Assembly: GCA_016000045.1 (NCBI GenBank) | Contig: JAECQY010000011.1 | Coordinates: 1-54,114 of the forward strand | DNA: 54,114 bases | Direction of reading: 5' to 3' | Source of the DNA: Myxococcaceae bacterium | GTDB lineage: Bacteria; Myxococcota; UBA727; JABDBI01 | Shown: positions 438 through 8,656 of the stretch, piece after piece | Numbering within the stretch: position 1 is the stretch's first letter | Layout of the letters: each line of letters opens with the position of its first letter | Made by a program: the position numbers and the translations under genes | Notes under the pieces: model-generated | The model's database searches: none | Seen by the model: only the letters and a program-made list of their open reading frames with translations | What the model was told of the DNA's origin: nothing

Positions 438-539
438 CCCGTCTTCAACGCACGCAGCGAACATAGCCTGTACCGCCGATGCTAACCGTGTTGACGCTGC
501 CATTACTGAAATCCACGCTCCACGCATTGGACGGGGACG
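438..539 (-). repeat. DGR variable repeat VR1
   Basis: This 102-nt segment matches the template repeat at 2429-2530 except at 13 positions. Twelve are T on the plus strand of TR (adenine on the coding strand) changed to C or A. The thirteenth, at 441, is a G in both VRs and A in TR and lies at the downstream (IMH) end. VR1 encodes the last residues of the upstream-starting target, where TR-encoded Asn codons become Ser, Asp, Val and Gly. The downstream flank (GACGGGATTTTTT on the minus strand) is shared with VR2 but not with TR. Confidence 0.95.
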
Positions 540-930
540 GTTGATAAACAGTCGACGACCAAAAATAGTTCGCTGGCGTTCCCGGAAAAGCCGTCAGATC
601 AATGGTGGCTCCTGAACTCACAGTCACGTCGACTAAAGTAGAAAGCTCCTTGATGGTCGGCATCCGCCAAGAGCCAGCGGCTTGACTCCCAATGACCAAC
701 TGAGCGCAATAGGCCTGCGCCGAACCGGCCGCAGCCGATGCGCTCCAAGTTCCTGTGCTATAAGCTCGCTGCCAAATAAGACCTGTCACGGTATCTTTGA
801 CCTGGGTGCTTCCGGCTGTCAGTGTCGATCCGGTTTCGTCCGTATAGCGACCCACCGGTGCACTCCCAAGCAAGCTTTGCGCCAAAAGAACCAGCATCAT
901 GGCCACGCTAAGATTTATTTTTAATGGCAT
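445..930 (-). CDS. DGR target protein 1: secreted DUF1566 (Lcl-like, C-type-lectin-fold) protein
   Basis: A 161-residue protein with an N-terminal signal peptide (hydrophobic stretch about residues 8-22) followed directly by a DUF1566 domain. The domain shows GLIWQR, WRMPTIKEL, a WSSTVY segment and the terminal YVRCVR. The last ~30 residues are encoded by VR1 and are the part being diversified, so this is probably an exported ligand-binding protein. I chose the ATG at 930 because AAGGA lies 7 nt upstream. The in-frame ATG at 936 would leave only one base. The start overlaps the RT 3' end by 23 nt, suggesting coupled translation. DUF1566 is an established DGR target domain, for example in Legionella. 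The ligand is unknown. Confidence 0.9.
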   Translation of the reverse strand: MPLKINLSVAMMLVLLAQSLLGSAPVGRYTDETGSTLTAGSTQVKDTVTGLIWQRAYSTGTWSASAAAGSAQAYCAQLVIGSQAAGSWRMPTIKELSTLVDVTVSSGATIDLTAFPGTPANYFWSSTVYQPSPSNAWSVDFSNGSVNTVSIGGTGYVRCVR

Positions 931-2416
931 CCTCATTTCCTTTTCGTTGAGGCTTCAACCAACGCACCAACGCGCGGGCTCGAATTCGCCCAAACGGAGT
1001 TGGCATTTCCAAGGCCAGAGCCACTGGCAACCCTTTTTGAAACGCTACATCCAACAGGCTTTGTAAACGCCGATACAAAACGCCCACGCGAAGCCGTCGA
1101 CCTTTTCGATGATTAGGAGTGGGTAACCCCAAGCGTTCCCGATCTTGAAAGCGAGGAACTTCTGCGTAGCGACCTACCTTGACCACTAAAACACTTTTTT
1201 TGAGACCTTCCTGCAAACGATCCACCTGATCACGCCAACAAGCATCTATCTTAAAAAATGGAAAGCGCGGTTCAAAGCCCAGCGGAGACTTAAAATGAAA
1301 CCGAGAAATCGTATGTTTTTGCCAAAGCCGCTTCAAGGCCGAACGACTGTCTGAGTGCACCAGGTGCCCATGATAGCTCATCCAAGTCGCTCGCAAGCGT
1401 TTAACTGCCTCCGATTGAATGGGCCAAGAGTCAAAACCTCTTAAACGTGAGCCCCGTAAAGGCTCCTCCAACTCTGCGAGGCGACGATCGGCCTGCTGTA
1501 AAACGCGGCGGCGCGAAAGAACGTAGTTAGGCCGAACGATATAGCCGACAAAGTCAACTCCCTCGCTCACCGGCCGCACAAGGGCGTCTTCATGTGCCAC
1601 AAGATGCAGGCGTTCTGCTAAAAACTTTCGAATGGATTCTTCCAAAGAACGAAGCTTTTGAGCCGATAAATCTAAGATCACCCAGTCGTCCACGTAGCGC
1701 ACATAGTGTCGTACTCCTAACGTACATTTCACAAACTGATCTAAGGCGTTTAGATACACGTTGCCAAAGAATTGGCTTGTCAAGTTGCCAATCGGCAACC
1801 CTCGATCGGGGCCTGAAGCGCCTAAACGCTTGTGCTGTGGAACGCGTTCAAAACGTTCTCGAGGCCCTACTCGTTGAGCCAAAGGAACTGGATCGTGATT
1901 CACAATTGTTCGAACCAAGGATCGAATGGATTCTGCATGTTCCATCGAACCCAGCTTTTTATCTAACAGACTCAGAAGCGTCGGCCGATGAATTGATGGA
2001 AAAAAAGCACGAACGTCCATTTTTAAAGCGTAGGCGCGTACTTTTCCTCCACGAGTCAGATGACGCATCTTTTGCTGAAGAGCATGCATGGCCGCGTGCG
2101 TACCCTTTCCAACGCGGCAGGCATAAGAGTCTGAAATAAAACTTTTCTCAAAAATCGGCTCCAGTTGAGCATGAAGCAGGTGATGAACCACTCGGTCTCT
2201 AAAGTCAGCAGCGTGTATCTCGCGATACTTGGGGCGGTCGGTCACAAACACCGTTCCGGGACCCGGAAGGTATCCTGAGTGAAGGCGTTTGGTTAAATCA
2301 AACACTCTCTCTCCATAGCGCATTCGAAACAAAATGGCATCGAGCCTCCCACGCTTGCGTTTCATGCAAGCCTGAGCGGCACGGTGCACATCCTCATACG
2401 AAGGCCATGAACTCAT
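908..2416 (-). CDS. DGR reverse transcriptase with extra C-terminal domain
   Basis: A 502-residue reverse transcriptase that copies the TR transcript into mutagenised cDNA. Visible motifs are KMDVRAFFP (131-140, catalytic Asp), the DGR-type GLPIGNLTSQ (206-215) and YVRYVDDW (238-245, catalytic Asp pair), followed by GYIVRPNY and a WMSYHGHL thumb motif. DGR RTs are usually about 300-400 residues. Here residues ~395-490 form an additional domain resembling MutS domain I: VLVVKVGRYAEV, then GVLYRRLQSLLDVAFQKGLP, then GRIRARALVRW. The start is ATG 2416 preceded by GGGAG; upstream in-frame codons merely read through TR. The stop lies inside the target 1 gene. Confidence 0.95.
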   Translation of the reverse strand: MSSWPSYEDVHRAAQACMKRKRGRLDAILFRMRYGERVFDLTKRLHSGYLPGPGTVFVTDRPKYREIHAADFRDRVVHHLLHAQLEPIFEKSFISDSYACRVGKGTHAAMHALQQKMRHLTRGGKVRAYALKMDVRAFFPSIHRPTLLSLLDKKLGSMEHAESIRSLVRTIVNHDPVPLAQRVGPRERFERVPQHKRLGASGPDRGLPIGNLTSQFFGNVYLNALDQFVKCTLGVRHYVRYVDDWVILDLSAQKLRSLEESIRKFLAERLHLVAHEDALVRPVSEGVDFVGYIVRPNYVLSRRRVLQQADRRLAELEEPLRGSRLRGFDSWPIQSEAVKRLRATWMSYHGHLVHSDSRSALKRLWQKHTISRFHFKSPLGFEPRFPFFKIDACWRDQVDRLQEGLKKSVLVVKVGRYAEVPRFQDRERLGLPTPNHRKGRRLRVGVLYRRLQSLLDVAFQKGLPVALALEMPTPFGRIRARALVRWLKPQRKGNEDAIKNKS

Positions 2417-2428
2417 ACTTTTGTTTCT

Positions 2429-2530
2429 CCCATCTTCAACGCACGCAGCGAACATAGTTTGTATTGCTGATGTTATTCGTGTTGACGTTGCCATTATTGA
2501 AATTCACGTTCCACGCATTGGACGGGGACG
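2429..2530 (-). repeat. DGR template repeat TR
   Basis: This 102-nt non-coding copy sits between avd and the RT gene. Read in the frame used by the targets, it gives an Asn-rich sequence built of AAY codons (for example NVNFNNGNVN), as expected of an adenine-rich template whose A residues are randomised. It differs from VR1 at 12 and from VR2 at 19 coding-strand adenines and at no other internal base. Its 3' end, GATGGGAG, replaces the GACGGGAT of the VRs, the expected IMH* versus IMH distinction. The same 3' end supplies the ribosome-binding site of the RT gene 12 nt away. Confidence 0.96.
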
Positions 2531-2557
2531 CCATTCGTTCGCGTGAGTTGCTTTTGC

Positions 2558-2653
2558 GCAGAGGTTTTTGAACAACCTCTGCTAGCCACACGGTGTCTTG
2601 TCAACAAGCGAACCGTTTGGCGCTTTTTTTTGCCAAGAACCCGGGTTCCTGGC
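2558..2653 (-). other. hairpin cluster in the avd-TR spacer (likely part of the DGR RNA)
   Basis: The 160-nt spacer between avd and TR has no gene but contains strong stems: 2558-2566 with 2574-2582 (9 bp), 2617-2621 with 2632-2636, and a nearly perfect palindrome at 2632-2653 centred on GAACCCGGGTTC. The last two exclude each other. In the well-studied Bordetella phage DGR, RNA flanking TR is needed for priming and binding by RT-Avd. By analogy this spacer may be the 5' part of that RNA. No experimental support is visible here. Confidence 0.45.
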
Positions 2654-2690
2654 GAACCCACCGCACGGGATCGAATAAGCACGCCCTTTT

Positions 2691-3086
2691 TCATACCGAC
2701 TTTTGCAAACCGGCACTGGAAGGTTCTGGCTTTGACATTTTCAGTTTCTTCCGCCAACCCACTGCCTGCCGAGTTAAGTCTATCACCTGCTTCATGATCA
2801 ACATAAATTCATTAAACGACGAAAATGCTTTTACCTCCTTGCCCACATTCATTAATAGCCTCATTGTCTCAACTTCTTCACAAAGCCTTGTCACTTTCTG
2901 TACGCGCTCCTCCGGCCGCATCGCTTCGCTGATGAGAATTAGAACGCTCAGCGCTTGATTTCGTAACTGCGTCCCTAATACGTAGCGATGGTATTGAGGA
3001 AATCCACGAACTACTAAATCCAATTTAACCACCAAGTCAATTGCCGTTCGATAGATCGGCAAACTTTCGTAATAACTCTTATCCAC
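2691..3086 (-). CDS. avd: Avd-family DGR accessory protein (four-helix bundle)
   Basis: A 131-residue, mostly helical basic protein of the Avd/S23-like four-helix-bundle family. In characterised DGRs it forms a barrel-shaped pentamer that binds the RT and template RNA and is needed for retrohoming. It begins SYYESLPIYRTAIDLVV and has the family's YRYVLGTQLRNQALSV segment and the helix RLCEEVETMRLLMNVG. Length matches the family (about 120-130). The start is GTG 3086, 10-12 nt after a strong GGGAGAAAGA ribosome-binding site, the same site type used by the RT and target 2 genes. It lies 37 nt after VR2 and upstream of TR, the classical target-avd-TR-RT order. Confidence 0.9.
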   Translation of the reverse strand: MDKSYYESLPIYRTAIDLVVKLDLVVRGFPQYHRYVLGTQLRNQALSVLILISEAMRPEERVQKVTRLCEEVETMRLLMNVGKEVKAFSSFNEFMLIMKQVIDLTRQAVGWRKKLKMSKPEPSSAGLQKSV

Positions 3087-3123
3087 TCTTTCTCCCTTCG
3101 GTTCTTAGTAAAAAGTAAAAAAT

Positions 3124-3225
3124 CCCGTCTTCAACGCACGCAGCGAACATAGCCTGCACCGCTGATGCTACCCGTGCCGACGTGGCCAGCATCGAAATAC
3201 ACGCGCCACGCAACGGACGGGGACG
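3124..3225 (-). repeat. DGR variable repeat VR2
   Basis: This 102-nt repeat forms the 3' end of the longer target gene. Against TR it has 19 substitutions, all at coding-strand adenines (plus-strand T to C, G or A), plus the fixed boundary difference at 3127 shared with VR1. TR-encoded Asn positions become Val, Arg, Tyr, Asp, Ala, His and Gly. VR1 and VR2 differ from each other, so both have been rewritten independently. Confidence 0.95.
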
Positions 3226-4477
3226 GCGCATAGACCGTTGAGGTCCAGTAAGAACTAGATTGCGTCCCAGGAAAGGTCGTTGTGTCAATCGAAGGGCTGC
3301 TGGTCGTGTAGTCCACCAAGGTCTGCAGTTCAATGCGTGTTGGTAGGCGCCAATGGTTGAATCCACCGGTTGCTTGGCTCGCACAATAAGCCTGAGCCGA
3401 TCCAGCGGCTGCAAAAGCGCTCCAAGGATAAGCGCCCGTGCTCCCCGTCTGTTGCCAACGTAGGCCAGTATACGAATCTGTCACAACGCCATTCGACACG
3501 GAATAGCGTCCACCTTGATTCGCTAGGTTGGCGTATACCCCTATGATTTGAGCCCATTGAGACCACTCTGAGCCTTGAGGGATCGTACAACTTAACGATG
3601 GGCTCAGGCTGAGAGTTGAGCTTGAAGAAAGTGGTAGACTCAGTGATAGACTCTCGGTCAGACTATTCGTCCAAGAATTTCCAGGACTTAAGCTACTGGA
3701 AACACTCAAATCGTGCGAATCACTTTGGCTCAAACGAAGGGTCCGACTCTTTGTTCGCGTTGACGGAGCCGAGAAAGACCCGGTTTCACTCTGAGCGATC
3801 GTTAGGCTCGGCTTCGTGAGCGTATCGCTGCTAGACACACTGCAAGTTAAAGTACTGGACTCACTCAAATAACCCGAGTCACTTTGGCTCAAACGAGGGG
3901 TCCCACTCTTTGTTCGCGTTGACGAAGCCAAAAAAGACTCGGTTTCATTCTGAGCCCTCGTTGGACTCAGCTTCGTGAGAGTATTGCTGCTAGACACACT
4001 GCAGGTTGCGGTACGAGGGTAAGCCAGCATCGCGAAGTTTTCATCATACACACTCGTTTTACCCGTCCAGTCGGCGTAAATATTCAAAAGCACAATATGG
4101 CTTCGGGTGATTTCAGACGCGTGACCCTCAGGCAAACGGGTCTGATTCGCGAAAAAGGGCACCATAGCCCCCTCCGACGAACTGATATTGCAGCTCACTC
4201 GCTCTAACATCGTGTTCAGATACAGCGAACAGTTAGCCACAAAAGTCCCGGTATAGTCCGGCTGCGCTTTGATTTGAGGCGATAGAGCTTCTAAAACGCC
4301 CCGAACACCCTGCCCGGACAGCACTTCCGCGTCAACCTGAGTCAACGAGCGATTCTCAAACAATTGCGCCCAAGGGTCTGGAATCGTGTTGTTAACCCAA
4401 GTAAGGTTCATTTGGACAGCCCAACTCGAGAAAGCCATAAACCCAAAACACCCCAAAAACAGGATTTTACAACGCAT
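3131..4477 (-). CDS. DGR target protein 2: secreted Ser/Thr-rich protein with C-terminal DUF1566 domain
   Basis: A 448-residue exported protein. It has a signal peptide at residues 1-20 and a Cys-containing N-terminal domain (about 25-155). Two tandem 53-residue Ser/Thr-rich repeats follow (159-211 and 212-263, each starting CSVSSS), then a Ser/Leu stretch (264-296). A C-terminal DUF1566 domain (about 325-448) contains GLRWQQ, HWRLPTRIEL and a YWTSTVY segment. The final ~30 residues are VR2. The layout suggests a surface stalk presenting a diversified binding tip. The ATG at 4477 follows GGGAGAAAGAA. The start overlaps the end of the upstream membrane-protein gene by 11 nt. Confidence 0.88.
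   Translation of the reverse strand: MRCKILFLGCFGFMAFSSWAVQMNLTWVNNTIPDPWAQLFENRSLTQVDAEVLSGQGVRGVLEALSPQIKAQPDYTGTFVANCSLYLNTMLERVSCNISSSEGAMVPFFANQTRLPEGHASEITRSHIVLLNIYADWTGKTSVYDENFAMLAYPRTATCSVSSSNTLTKLSPTRAQNETESFLASSTRTKSGTPRLSQSDSGYLSESSTLTCSVSSSDTLTKPSLTIAQSETGSFSAPSTRTKSRTLRLSQSDSHDLSVSSSLSPGNSWTNSLTESLSLSLPLSSSSTLSLSPSLSCTIPQGSEWSQWAQIIGVYANLANQGGRYSVSNGVVTDSYTGLRWQQTGSTGAYPWSAFAAAGSAQAYCASQATGGFNHWRLPTRIELQTLVDYTTSSPSIDTTTFPGTQSSSYWTSTVYAPSPSVAWRVYFDAGHVGTGSISGAGYVRCVR
3686..4003 (-). repeat. tandem 159-nt repeat inside target 2
   Basis: Two adjacent copies (4003-3845 and 3844-3686) encode 53-residue Ser/Thr-rich units. Both carry conserved CSVSSS, SSTRTKS and RLSQSDS blocks, with scattered substitutions between copies. 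The copies stay in frame, so unit number could vary by slippage or recombination and change stalk length. Confidence 0.8.
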
Positions 4478-5951
4478 TTCTTTCTCCCGTGGAATCCAAA
4501 CCCAAAGCTTGCGAGATCTCTTCTGCCAGATTTAACTTGCCGTTGATTTGCGTTCTTTGAAGCTCGTAGTGTTCAGACGTACTCCGCCTTGTAAATGGCA
4601 ATTCTAAGGGCTCCGGTATTTCTCGAATCGTCGGCTTTTCAAATGATAGCTTTAAAGGTTTCGGCAGGGCTTGAATGGCTGGAATCGTGCTCGTGGAGCT
4701 GCTGGCAGAACTGGATCTCGAAGAACTCCGGGATTCTAGTTCCACGCCTCCTGAGAGGCCCAACAAATCCAATGGCAAATCCATAGAAGGCTCCTCGAGG
4801 AGGGGCTTCGTCAATGAAGCAGGCTCGGGCAGAGGCTTTTTGACGAACACGCCATCGTACACGTTTTTGACTCGCAGGCCAATATCAAACAAGGTCTTCA
4901 CCATCATCAAGTATTCGGTCGCCACCACAACCCATTGCGTGACGGATCGAACTTGTTGCTGCGTTTCCTCGGAAGCTGCAACAGAAGCAATCGCTTGCGT
5001 GGTCAGCGCTAAAGCTTGCAAGCCAGCTATGCCGCTAAAGAAATATTGGACATGGGGGTTGCGATTCGGACGTAGCCCAATTTGACTGAGCGCATACGCA
5101 TCGTACACCCCTGCCGCAACCCACAAAAGCCGGCTGCAATCGGCTTGCAGAGACTGATACGATTTGAGAACCCCCACCGTAACGGAAGTGAAAAGCTCCG
5201 CGATAATATAGCCTTGGCGCGCCGGACCATAGGTATCAAAAAGCTCGCCATATCGATCAACCCAACCGCTGCCTGGCCAAACATCGACCCACTCTCGCTC
5301 TTCGATTTCCCAGTGCGCCCTAAAGAACCAGGGCAAGGTAGGCACTCCGGCCGCACCGACTCCCACCAAGGTTGCGATCAGCGAACAAGCGCCAAGGGTT
5401 TTTTGAGAAGCATCTCCTTGCCGCATGAGCGAGACCGAAGAGGTCGTAGTCGGAGAGATCAAGAATAAAACGGGCAAGATCAAGCTGCCCGGCAGATGAG
5501 CTTGGAAAACTCCGATCCGATAAGCAACGGCTCCCCAAACACTTGAAATGCCGAGCAACAGCGCCCAGTTCCCTAAAACGGCTCCTGCATGGTACTGCAG
5601 ATCATCCGAACCCAGCGCGATCCGGGTCGGGCTGTCCTGCCAATCCAAAGCTCCTGTCTGTGCAGGCAAACGATCATCGCAGGCCAGAATGCCGAGCGTC
5701 AAACCTGTCCGAGCATTTTGAGCGACTTGAGTCAGCCCTACGGCCGTCACGGTGCCCAGCAAAGTCGAAACCGCAGCCCCCGTTTTGGCCGATTCTGTCA
5801 CCTGCGGAGGAATGGCAGGCGGTGGTAAATCCAAGTGATTTCGAGCAACCACCTCCCACATGGGAAAAGGCTCTGCACAAGGCAGTGGTTCAGCCAGAGA
5901 ATAGGCAACCTGTAGGCTGGCCAATGCAGAGAAAAAGAGGCCGTATTTCAT
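4467..5951 (-). CDS. polytopic membrane protein with Ser-rich tail, upstream of DGR target 2
   Basis: A 494-residue protein I do not recognise. It has an N-terminal signal-like segment (MKYGLFFSALASLQVAYSLA), several hydrophobic stretches (for example around LLGTVTAVGL, LILPVLFLIS and SLIATLVGVGAAGV), and a non-membrane C-terminal third rich in Pro and Ser with an RSSSRSSSASSSTST run. The ATG at 5951 was preferred over an in-frame TTG 21 nt earlier because it begins the signal sequence. Its 3' end overlaps target 2 by 11 nt, so the two are probably translated together. A role as membrane partner of the diversified protein is plausible but unproven. Confidence 0.75.
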   Translation of the reverse strand: MKYGLFFSALASLQVAYSLAEPLPCAEPFPMWEVVARNHLDLPPPAIPPQVTESAKTGAAVSTLLGTVTAVGLTQVAQNARTGLTLGILACDDRLPAQTGALDWQDSPTRIALGSDDLQYHAGAVLGNWALLLGISSVWGAVAYRIGVFQAHLPGSLILPVLFLISPTTTSSVSLMRQGDASQKTLGACSLIATLVGVGAAGVPTLPWFFRAHWEIEEREWVDVWPGSGWVDRYGELFDTYGPARQGYIIAELFTSVTVGVLKSYQSLQADCSRLLWVAAGVYDAYALSQIGLRPNRNPHVQYFFSGIAGLQALALTTQAIASVAASEETQQQVRSVTQWVVVATEYLMMVKTLFDIGLRVKNVYDGVFVKKPLPEPASLTKPLLEEPSMDLPLDLLGLSGGVELESRSSSRSSSASSSTSTIPAIQALPKPLKLSFEKPTIREIPEPLELPFTRRSTSEHYELQRTQINGKLNLAEEISQALGLDSTGERNAL

Positions 5952-6077
5952 TCCATAATCCCATTCGAGCAATCAATGGGGGGTTTTTAGCATCTGAAAG
6001 ACTCGAGTGCAAGTTGAGGCAAACTTCGAAGTCTCATCGCCCTGCCGTTCTCAGGCCTATTAAGCCCGGATACTCGA

Positions 6078-6114: not shown

Positions 6115-7767
6115 ATGCGCTACGCGATTGGCATCGATGACTTTAAGCAACTCAGAACTTCGCTGGATGACACAGGAACCCCGCTTTTCTATTGTGATAA
6201 AAGTCTTTTTATTCGCGACGTCATCCGAGACGGCTCTGCGGTTCTTTTACTGCCCAGACCCCGGCGTTTTGGCAAATCGTTGAACCTCTCCATGCTCAAG
6301 TATTTTATGGGCAGCGAAGAACCTTTGTTTGACGGCCTAGCGATCGAACAATATCCCGAGATTTTAGCCGGCTGGCGCGGTAAATTCCCCGTGGTCATGT
6401 TAGGGTTCAAGGGCCTCAAAGCCGACACCTTTGAAAATTTACAAGCTTCTTTGAAGACCTGCATACTCGATTGCTTCGAACAGTTTGCTTATTTGAGTGA
6501 CTCTAAAGAATTGAGCGACTTGCAGCATCGGAAACTAGCTCCCTTCTTGAATGGGAGTTTGGATGCCATTCAGCTGACGAATTCACTGAAATATCTGACG
6601 GAGTTTTTGGAAAAGCACCACGGTCAAAAAGTCTGGGTGCTGATCGACGAGTACGACACGCCCTTGCAACATGCGTACTTAAATGGGTTTTTTCCGGAAG
6701 CGGTGGCGTTGTTTAAGCAAGTCCTGGGAGCGGTCCTCAAATCCAATACGTCTTTATACAAGGCGGTGATCACCGGCATTACGCGGATTTCCAAAGAAAG
6801 CTTGTTTTCAGACCTGAATAACATTCGAGTTTATGACATTACCCAAAACGCTTATGCAAATTATTTTGGCTTTACGGAAGAAGAAGTAGAAGCCGTTTGT
6901 CCATCGGAGCATTTGTCGGAGCTGAAATCCTGGTACAACGGTTATTCGTTTGGGAAGAACCGCCTGACCATCTATAATCCTTGGTCAGTCTTAAACTTCT
7001 TGAGCAACGATTTTGATTTAAAGCCCTATTGGATCAACACGTCTGGGAATGATTTGATCCAAGATTGCTTAACGGCCGATAAATTGCCGGATGTACACAA
7101 ACTCATCCAACGGGAGAGTATCGGTATTCCCCTTGAGCCATACACGGTCATGAGCGACCTGAGAGAAAACGCTTATTCGTTTTGGAATCTATTGTTTATT
7201 TCGGGTTACTTAACGCTGGATGCGGAAGGCAAGATGATGATCCCGAACCGAGAGGTGACCTATTTCTTTGAAAAGACGGTGACTGCTTGGTTTGGGGGTA
7301 GGCAAAAAGAGCGTTTCTTAAACGAACTCTTAGAAGATTTGATTTGGGGAAATGCTCTTGAGCTGCAAAGTAAATTGCAACAGTTGATTTTGGAAACCCT
7401 GAGTTTCCATGATGTCACCGAACGCAAACAAGAATCGTTTTACCACGGTTTCTTGCTAGGCATGACGCTGGGTCTGCGGGGCCGTTACATCGTCAAGTCG
7501 AATCGAGAAAGCGGCTACGGGCGTTATGACTTGGGGTTGTACCCCCTAAACCCTCAGAAAGACCCAGGGATTTTGATCGAAGTCAAAATGGGCCTAGAGG
7601 CCTCGGCAGGCTTAGAGCAGATTGAAGAGAAAGCCTACTATCAAGACTTACAAACGGCCGGTTGTTCCAAGATCCAGACTTACTCGATTGCGTTCGATGG
7701 CAAACGCGTGAGCAGTTTGTACGCATGCAAAGGCAGCGATAGAGTGTTGCACCCACTCCAGAGTTAA
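6115..7767 (+). CDS. AAA-ATPase-like / PD-(D/E)XK nuclease-domain protein, copy 1
   Basis: A 550-residue protein of the AAA-ATPase_like (PF09820) plus DUF1703-type PD-(D/E)XK (PF08011) family. It shows Walker A PRPRRFGKS at 47-55, Walker B VWVLIDEYD near 172-180, a YNGYSFG segment, and a C-terminal nuclease-like core with YGRYDLGLYP and ILIEVKMG near 467-493. The family is widespread in multi-copy form. Its biological role is not established. Two further copies in this window (14384 and 26408) share long identical DNA blocks with it. Copy 1 differs from both around residues 116-165. Confidence 0.9.
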   Translation: MRYAIGIDDFKQLRTSLDDTGTPLFYCDKSLFIRDVIRDGSAVLLLPRPRRFGKSLNLSMLKYFMGSEEPLFDGLAIEQYPEILAGWRGKFPVVMLGFKGLKADTFENLQASLKTCILDCFEQFAYLSDSKELSDLQHRKLAPFLNGSLDAIQLTNSLKYLTEFLEKHHGQKVWVLIDEYDTPLQHAYLNGFFPEAVALFKQVLGAVLKSNTSLYKAVITGITRISKESLFSDLNNIRVYDITQNAYANYFGFTEEEVEAVCPSEHLSELKSWYNGYSFGKNRLTIYNPWSVLNFLSNDFDLKPYWINTSGNDLIQDCLTADKLPDVHKLIQRESIGIPLEPYTVMSDLRENAYSFWNLLFISGYLTLDAEGKMMIPNREVTYFFEKTVTAWFGGRQKERFLNELLEDLIWGNALELQSKLQQLILETLSFHDVTERKQESFYHGFLLGMTLGLRGRYIVKSNRESGYGRYDLGLYPLNPQKDPGILIEVKMGLEASAGLEQIEEKAYYQDLQTAGCSKIQTYSIAFDGKRVSSLYACKGSDRVLHPLQS

Positions 7768-7822: not shown

Positions 7823-8656
7823 ATGTTCGGTCGCATTCTGGATGGAAAACGCATTGCAGAGTTTCATTTGCTGGAGCTTAAAAGTCGAATTGGCTCTGCG
7901 CCACAAAAACCCTGCCTCTGCGTGATTCGCGTTGGAAATAACCCTGCTTCCGAAGTCTATGTGGCTCGAAAAGTCAAAGCAGCCTTAGCTGTTGGCATTG
8001 AAAGTCGATCCATCCATCTTTCCGAATCGTCGTCTCAGGCCGATTTGATTCAAGAAATCAGCCTGGCCAACCAAGACTCGTCGATTCACGGCATTCTCGT
8101 CCAACTGCCCTTGCCGTCTCATCTATCCACCCAAACCATCCTTCAATCCATCAACCCACTCAAAGATGTAGACGGATTTCATCCAGAAAATTTTGGACTT
8201 CTCTCCCTGGGAGCTCCGCGTTTTGTGCCTTGCACTCCCAAAGGGTGCCTGGAACTTCTGAAAGCCATTCCGGTCGATTTACTCGGCAAACACGCCGTGG
8301 TGGTTGGCCGCAGCAACATTGTTGGCAAACCCATGGCTCAACTCCTTCTGAATTCGCAAGCGACGGTCACTGTTTGTCACAAAAATACGCTTAATCTCGC
8401 GTATTTTACCTCTCAAGCCGATGTCTTGATCGTGGCTTCGGGTGTGCCAGGCCTGATCGGGCCAAACCATGTTAAAGAGGGTGCGATTGTTCTCGACGTT
8501 GGTATCAACCGCCTCTCAGATGGAAAACTGGTAGGCGATGTGCATACGGAGCAAGTTCTGCCAAAAGTTTCCTGGATAACACCCGTACCGGGCGGTGTAG
8601 GTCCGATGACCGTCGCCATGCTGATGGAAAATACGTTTCGAGCCAGCCAGTTATAG
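7823..8656 (+). CDS. folD: bifunctional methylenetetrahydrofolate dehydrogenase/cyclohydrolase
   Basis: A 277-residue FolD, which interconverts 5,10-methylene-, methenyl- and 10-formyl-tetrahydrofolate in cytosolic one-carbon metabolism. It has the catalytic YVARK (Tyr46, Lys50), VQLPLP, KDVDGFHPEN, the NADP-binding VVGRSNIVGKPMA and the terminal PVPGGVGPMTVAML. The ATG at 7823 aligns with the family start; in-frame codons from 7769 have no FolD-like sequence. A TGCTAGACT extended -10 at 7804-7811 ends 11 nt before the ATG, giving at most a very short leader. It converges on the kinase gene and overlaps it by 6 nt. Confidence 0.95.
   Translation: MFGRILDGKRIAEFHLLELKSRIGSAPQKPCLCVIRVGNNPASEVYVARKVKAALAVGIESRSIHLSESSSQADLIQEISLANQDSSIHGILVQLPLPSHLSTQTILQSINPLKDVDGFHPENFGLLSLGAPRFVPCTPKGCLELLKAIPVDLLGKHAVVVGRSNIVGKPMAQLLLNSQATVTVCHKNTLNLAYFTSQADVLIVASGVPGLIGPNHVKEGAIVLDVGINRLSDGKLVGDVHTEQVLPKVSWITPVPGGVGPMTVAMLMENTFRASQL

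Follow-up and report, generated by a model that had tools for sequence, protein, structure and literature searches.

How far into its own genome can a single template of a diversity-generating retroelement (DGR) write, and what becomes of the variants that it leaves behind? This question is raised by a 54,114-nt stretch of DNA from a Myxococcaceae bacterium (contig JAECQY010000011.1 of assembly GCA_016000045.1; hereafter the window), in which a template repeat (TR), a reverse transcriptase (RT) gene and two target genes ending in variable repeats (VRs) lie side by side. We consider it very probable that the window carries an intact DGR of Myxococcota type whose template, TR-A, wrote six VRs in genes with the Lcl_C (DUF1566, PF07603) domain, that a second set of VRs derives from another template, and that relics persist in the same genome; writing in trans, loss of loci through fusion and fossil VRs are suggested by the same comparisons. 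Coordinates without a prefix refer to the window, and C1 to C11 denote the contigs of the 11-contig assembly; outside the window, the DNA examined consisted of the stretches around Lcl_C genes. The cassette is read on the minus strand in the order target 2, avd, TR, RT and target 1, and is composed of the following features.

3131-4477, minus strand: target 2, a 448-aa secreted-type protein with a Ser-rich stalk and a C-terminal Lcl_C domain (E=2.1e-31)
3124-3225, minus strand: VR2, the 3' end of target 2, with 19 changes at adenine sites, 0 other internal changes, and the initiation of mutagenic homing (IMH) sequence GAAGACGGG
2691-3086, minus strand: Avd-like accessory protein of 131 aa (NF033474 E=4.5e-8, bAvd E=5.9e-8), matching in position the Avd-like open reading frame (ORF) of a related Myxococcales locus, L064
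2429-2530, minus strand: TR-A, whose mutable part holds 28 of its 31 adenines, with the 3' end IMH* GAAGATGGG
908-2416, minus strand: DGR RT of 502 aa with the motifs LPIGNLTSQ and YVDD and a MutS domain I-like C-terminus, starting at the ATG at 2416
911-1255, minus strand: the C-terminal extension of this RT, MutS_I-like, with YAE as its FxE-type motif (from a PF01624 hit of the homologue in locus L133 and an hhalign comparison with Escherichia coli MutS)
445-936, minus strand: target 1, 163 aa, with an N-terminal signal-like segment and one Lcl_C domain (E=6.5e-28)
438-539, minus strand: VR1, the 3' end of target 1, with 12 changes at adenine sites, 0 other internal changes, and the IMH GAAGACGGG

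The evidence for mutagenic copying lies in the repeats themselves. TR, VR1 and VR2 are 102 nt each and align without gaps on the minus strand, and their homology extends by 1 nt more (103 nt, with base 2428 included). The 12 internal differences of VR1 (11 A>G and 1 A>T) and the 19 of VR2 (14 A>G, 3 A>C and 2 A>T) fall exclusively on adenines of the TR; the chance of all changes landing on the 31 adenines among 98 positions is 1.7e-7 for VR1 and 1.6e-12 for VR2. The sole other difference is found at position 99, where the TR has T and both VRs have C (GAAGATGGG and GAAGACGGG), and it is the expected IMH*/IMH mismatch. A first-pass annotation of this DNA had described the gapless repeats, the adenine-only differences, the one fixed base at the downstream end and an RT with LPIGNLTSQ together with Avd in the order target-avd-TR-RT-target; our realignment reproduced the repeats and their differences to the base, and the gene order was confirmed. 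The RT was counted from the ATG at 2416, as the listed ORF, which reaches 2494, would enter the TR. TR-A has no ORF of its own, is non-coding and adjoins the RT gene, and the VRs are the last codons of both local targets, where the Lcl_C domain is C-terminal. The Avd-like ORF sits between a target and the TR, as in L064, so that an Avd-like protein is present in the place expected for a DGR. Under the mechanism that we propose, the RT with Avd would copy the TR transcript with its adenines miscopied, and the mutated complementary DNA would replace the 3' end of those Lcl_C targets that bear a matching IMH.

The affiliation of the RT is consistent with this assignment. A tree of phage, cyanobacterial and other DGR RTs with four group II intron RTs separates the two groups with 100/100 support and places the RT of the window on the DGR side, so that an origin outside the DGR RTs, which would have spoken against the first-pass annotation, was not found. 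The best match of solved structure is 8ub7 (E=1e-39, where a group II intron RT reached 2e-10), which we take to be the RT of the Bordetella BPP-1 DGR. Membership in the group II intron family TIGR04416 is contradicted by the score (93 bits, the cut-off being 300) as well as by the tree.

A genome search with TR-A located four more VRs, each forming the final ~100 nt of a large Lcl_C protein.

C1:226544: remote A-type VR with 16 adenine changes relative to TR-A
C3:53602: remote A-type VR with 14 adenine changes
C3:80695: remote A-type VR with 21 adenine changes
C3:84358: remote A-type VR with 17 adenine changes

The two targets noted earlier are thus real, and the number is an undercount, since six VRs match TR-A; beyond the window, the same genome also holds a second RT locus and relics. 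The remote VRs carry 1-4 further differences each, with the IMH base counted. When the six VRs are pooled, variation is found in 26/31 adenine columns and in 8/67 other columns (p=4.5e-12), and the 99 changes comprise 68 A>G, 22 A>T and 9 A>C. Changes affect codon positions 1 and 2 to the same degree (53/90 vs 42/72), the adenines 95, 96 and 98 at the IMH end are unchanged in all A-type VRs, and the T/C difference at position 99 is present in 5/6 of them. By sequence comparison, TR-A can be firmly identified as the source of six VRs, two local and four on C1 and C3, each of which ends a predicted secreted Lcl_C adhesin.

How the remote VRs received their sequence is best judged from what surrounds them. 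When local targets are compared with remote ones, identity is 94-98% at the non-adenine positions of the VR and 32-54% at the adenine positions, whereas the domain just upstream is 53-60% identical. Since the non-adenine positions match while the adjoining target differs, duplication alone would not explain the pattern, and the remote VRs were probably diversified in trans by retrohoming. It is quite unlikely that they simply came along with the duplication of already diversified target genes. The target families do duplicate (type-a and type-b repeats, described below, are 86-90% identical), and pairs within the C1/C3 group, with a framework identity of 84-100%, are less telling against duplication; however, plain duplication predicts equal similarity within and outside the VR, which is not what the local-remote pairs display. 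Gene conversion among paralogues or diversifying selection, without any reverse transcription, is an extremely improbable explanation. Paralogues are many (162 domains), and in the last domains of C3:53612 and C3:84368 the 253 nt that adjoin the VR on its 5' side are identical, which suggests conversion between these two, but neither process predicts that changes would be limited to the adenines of a single non-coding copy next to an RT gene, and such a template copy, which has no ORF of its own, exists. The same two C3 domains have 17 VR differences, 13 of them at template adenines (Fisher 2e-10). The two domains recently came to share the 253-nt tract by homogenisation or copying, and their VRs were spared or changed afterwards.

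A further RT locus and two relics lie elsewhere in the genome.

C1:173268-174815 (= L015:8268-9815): RT-B, ~50-53% identical to the RT of the window (RT-A), flanked by two Lcl_C targets
C7: relic in which an N-terminal fragment of the RT (34 aligned residues) remains, together with a truncated avd next to a second target
C5:7512-9118: relic with a target and a truncated avd

Neither avd nor TR was found at the RT-B locus. Six VRs, here called B-type, carry the 3' end of this locus, GTCCGTTGCGCGCGTTGAGGATGGGA, with at most 1 base changed. Five of them can be aligned gaplessly, and in these the columns of TR-A adenines vary in 25/27 cases and the others in 4/39 (p=6.5e-12); because variation is concentrated at these columns, the B-type VRs are DGR products. 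The same five have in common seven fixed non-adenine differences from TR-A, which show that a separate template was used; for this reason, their interpretation as old copies of TR-A was rejected. A search of the assembly with the inferred TR-B found no template, and the conserved B-type 3' end occurs only in the six VRs, while TR-A and one A-type VR are three-mismatch hits. The first B-type VR was also considered as a TR, which is unsupported as it lies inside a target ORF and has many non-adenine bases at variable columns. In the cassette of the window, the TR end GATGGGAGAA precedes the RT start, and GATGGGAGAA stands before the RT in 3/3 RT loci. Both in the RT-B locus and in the C7 relic, the VR of a target leads straight into GATGGGAGAA and the RT start, and the remaining members of these VR sets are flanked differently on the 3' side. 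These two junctions suggest that both loci lost avd and TR through recombination, in which a VR would have fused with the TR and RT leader.

A competing account, in which the living organism has a complete second RT locus whose TR and avd fell into an assembly gap or were mis-assembled, with no fusion at all, is rather unlikely. The assembly is in 11 contigs, several of which end inside or beside Lcl_C genes, and repeats may collapse; against this, the target-RT junction is interior to contig C1 rather than terminal, the C7 relic has the same type of junction in a different sequence, and assembly completeness is 99.59%. We thus favor fusion at both loci. As for activity, the first-pass annotation held that the DGR is or recently was active. 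Past rewriting is supported, because VR1 and VR2 keep every non-adenine template base (64/64, with adenine positions 46% identical) while the adjoining domain is 56% identical, and rewriting appears to have been recent at C3:53612 and C3:84368, because 0 differences in 253 nt stand against 17 in the adjoining VR. That the cassette is complete but now inactive, its VRs being leftovers of past retrohoming, seems unlikely: two RT loci of the genome are damaged and the remote VRs have gathered 1-4 non-adenine differences, but the RT ORF, the Avd ORF, the TR and the VRs of both local targets are undamaged, VR1 and VR2 lack any internal non-adenine change, and the two C3 genes differ at 17 VR sites beside their identical tract. 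Several points nevertheless weigh against our interpretation. The evidence supports past rewriting and does not reach present activity; a gap in the assembly could hide the second template; the Avd-like ORF scores under the curated cut-offs for NF033474 and bAvd alike; a stem-loop 3' of the IMH (AT-rich inverted repeats) is seen at some remote VRs only, with none found at VR1; and the AlphaFold models, with a predicted local distance difference test (pLDDT) of 61 for Lcl_C and 63 for the neighbouring family X protein, are too weak for surface placement of the variable residues.

The targets belong to a domain family that is numerous in this genome. The host is a member of Myxococcota with a 1.32-Mb genome (members of its family have 0.3 to 1.8 Mb), a size from which host association of the organism might be guessed. 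Lcl_C gave 156 matches genome-wide, and 162 domains in 65 ORFs occupy 110 kb, or 8.3% of bases; a relative in the same genus has 2 and family members have 0-3, and this RT was found in none of them. The Lcl_C proteins are probably variable surface ligand binders. The AlphaFold model of Lcl_C from a target had no PDB match at E <= 0.001, so that modelling did not confirm the C-type-lectin-like fold expected of a DGR target, and phmmer with this domain against the PDB returned chance matches only. Contig ends were seen in or near Lcl_C genes at C3:1, C5:135247, C10:1, the ends of C4, C7 and C9, and C11:1; such repeats evidently break the assembly, and the copy numbers may thus be undercounts.

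Seven large proteins are made up of alternating type-a and type-b domains. Among the type-b domains, internal and terminal alike, the neighbouring framework is 86% identical, the columns of TR-A adenines 35% and the other VR columns 78%; sister type-a domains, which serve as a control, gave 90% and 87%. Internal type-b copies have an excess of adenine-site changes (p<0.002 in 5/6 and p=0.04 in 1/6), possess neither stop nor IMH, and carry 6-20 non-adenine differences, where terminal A-type copies from the same family have 1-3. Because stop and IMH are absent, these copies are read as frozen, and internal repeats with adenine-patterned variation are likely to be duplicated products of earlier diversification. 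One may tentatively go further, though this could well be wrong, and propose that the DGR feeds a growing archive, in which terminal Lcl_C domains are diversified, duplicated inward, deprived of their IMH and frozen, while recombination of a VR with the near-identical TR puts an end to the DGR loci. If true, the generation, retention and loss of variants could be read in one 1.3-Mb genome. Proteins of 1,700-1,985 aa with 10-12 Lcl_C domains unmatched to either template were also observed (C9:59619-65573, C10:42966-48194, C4:131020-136242 and C5:49781-54919).

Lcl_C is a common DGR target (PMC4159848, PMC6642488), and several VRs within one ORF have been described (PMC6642488). The DGRs of BPP-1 and related phages share with the window the kind of RT, Avd, a TR upstream of the RT, adenine-specific changes from TR to VR, the IMH/IMH* mismatch and a target whose 3' end is the VR; in contrast, the present DGR is cellular, with an Lcl_C instead of an Mtd-type target, a MutS_I-like RT extension, a second target after the RT and four remote VRs. 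The BPP-1 system has been reconstituted in a laboratory E. coli strain (PMC12875486). The same layout as in the window is seen in the Myxococcales locus L064 (JAJXUD010000113.1), with the order target-avd-TR-RT-target, Lcl_C targets, the same TR 3' end (TTGARGATGGGA), a homologous RT extension, and, over 80 nt of TR and VR, 12-13 adenine differences and 0 others. In two further genomes of the phylum (G029 and G043), an RT of this type likewise adjoins TR/VR pairs, with Lcl_C targets. The comparison with these three covered the cassette and Lcl_C counts; they differ in their larger genomes with 4-20 Lcl_C domains. In a Candidatus Saccharibacteria contig of a 0.9-Mb genome (L065), a DGR was also noted whose RT is related (45% identity) and whose VR (5819-5943) and TR (7848-7972) have 7/7 of their differences at adenines.

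Remote targets and decayed loci have been documented in other bacteria. In the available part of the report on Treponema denticola, one TR and RT serve up to seven mostly remote VRs, and strain SP32 retains a leftover VR of a lost DGR type, whereas the targets are of TvpA type and that part reports no second RT locus (PMC4891356). Thiohalocapsa PB-PSB1 has nine DGR loci, including incomplete ones, multi-VR targets and decayed TR or RT; trans diversification was inferred there from non-adenine matches to the TR of another locus, and activity was shown in metagenomes (PMC10907252). Its decay proceeded via transposons and arrays resembling miniature inverted-repeat transposable elements (MITEs), unlike the apparent VR-TR fusion described here, and its targets, again unlike ours, are sensors of conflict systems (PMC10907252). 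Cyanobacterial DGRs similarly have target paralogues dispersed in the genome, remote VRs and a degraded RT-only cassette, but their targets are C-lectin domains of signalling proteins and remote matches lie at gene 3' ends only (PMC7517822), in contrast to the internal fossil VRs found here. Each element thus has precedent in Treponema denticola, cyanobacteria or Thiohalocapsa, and the fossil repeats together with the fusion junctions are the interesting part. DGR surveys of metagenome contigs overlook remote targets (PMC8144416), and whole-genome cases such as this one reveal the reach of one template. The count of non-adenine differences may serve as a rough clock since the last rewriting of each VR, with the sister type-a repeats as an internal control, and with intact, TR-less and relic loci side by side, how useful variants are retained and how DGRs die become testable. 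The share of the genome held by Lcl_C ORFs is a large investment in variable surface-type proteins for a Myxococcota lineage whose genome is unusually small.

The C-terminal extension is common to RT-A, RT-B and the RTs of L064, L133 and L135. That of L133 hits PF01624 (MutS domain I) with 34.1 bits against a cut-off of 20.6, and the profile of the extension family aligns with the E. coli MutS N-terminus in hhalign (probability 61%, E=8e-5), while the RT of the window gave no PF01624 hit in a Pfam search with the whole protein or the extension alone. The pattern G-x-[FY]-x-E of the MutS mismatch-recognition motif is kept in the extensions of the RT relatives. MSL (PF01624) has been described as an accessory of DGRs (PMC10053308).

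Directly upstream of target 2 lies a member of family X, which has 9-10 copies in the genome, some directly beside Lcl_C stalk genes.

4467-5972, minus strand: family X, a multi-helix protein of ~494 aa, probably a membrane protein
C3:88823, C1:170434, C3:4431, C6:59921, C9:66158 and C5:59952: further copies of family X

Family X has no Pfam match, and its AlphaFold model (pLDDT 63) has no PDB match at E <= 0.001. Elsewhere it occurs only in two members of the host's taxonomic family, where one copy adjoins an Lcl_C gene (G006:C114). A protein that by eye resembles an AAA-ATPase/PD-(D/E)XK protein was noticed near Lcl_C loci, at 6115-7767 on the plus strand of the window, at L101:4295-5938 and at L087:2822-4042. 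At the contig start, a 22-nt direct repeat (91%) occupies positions 1-22 and 42-63 of the window.

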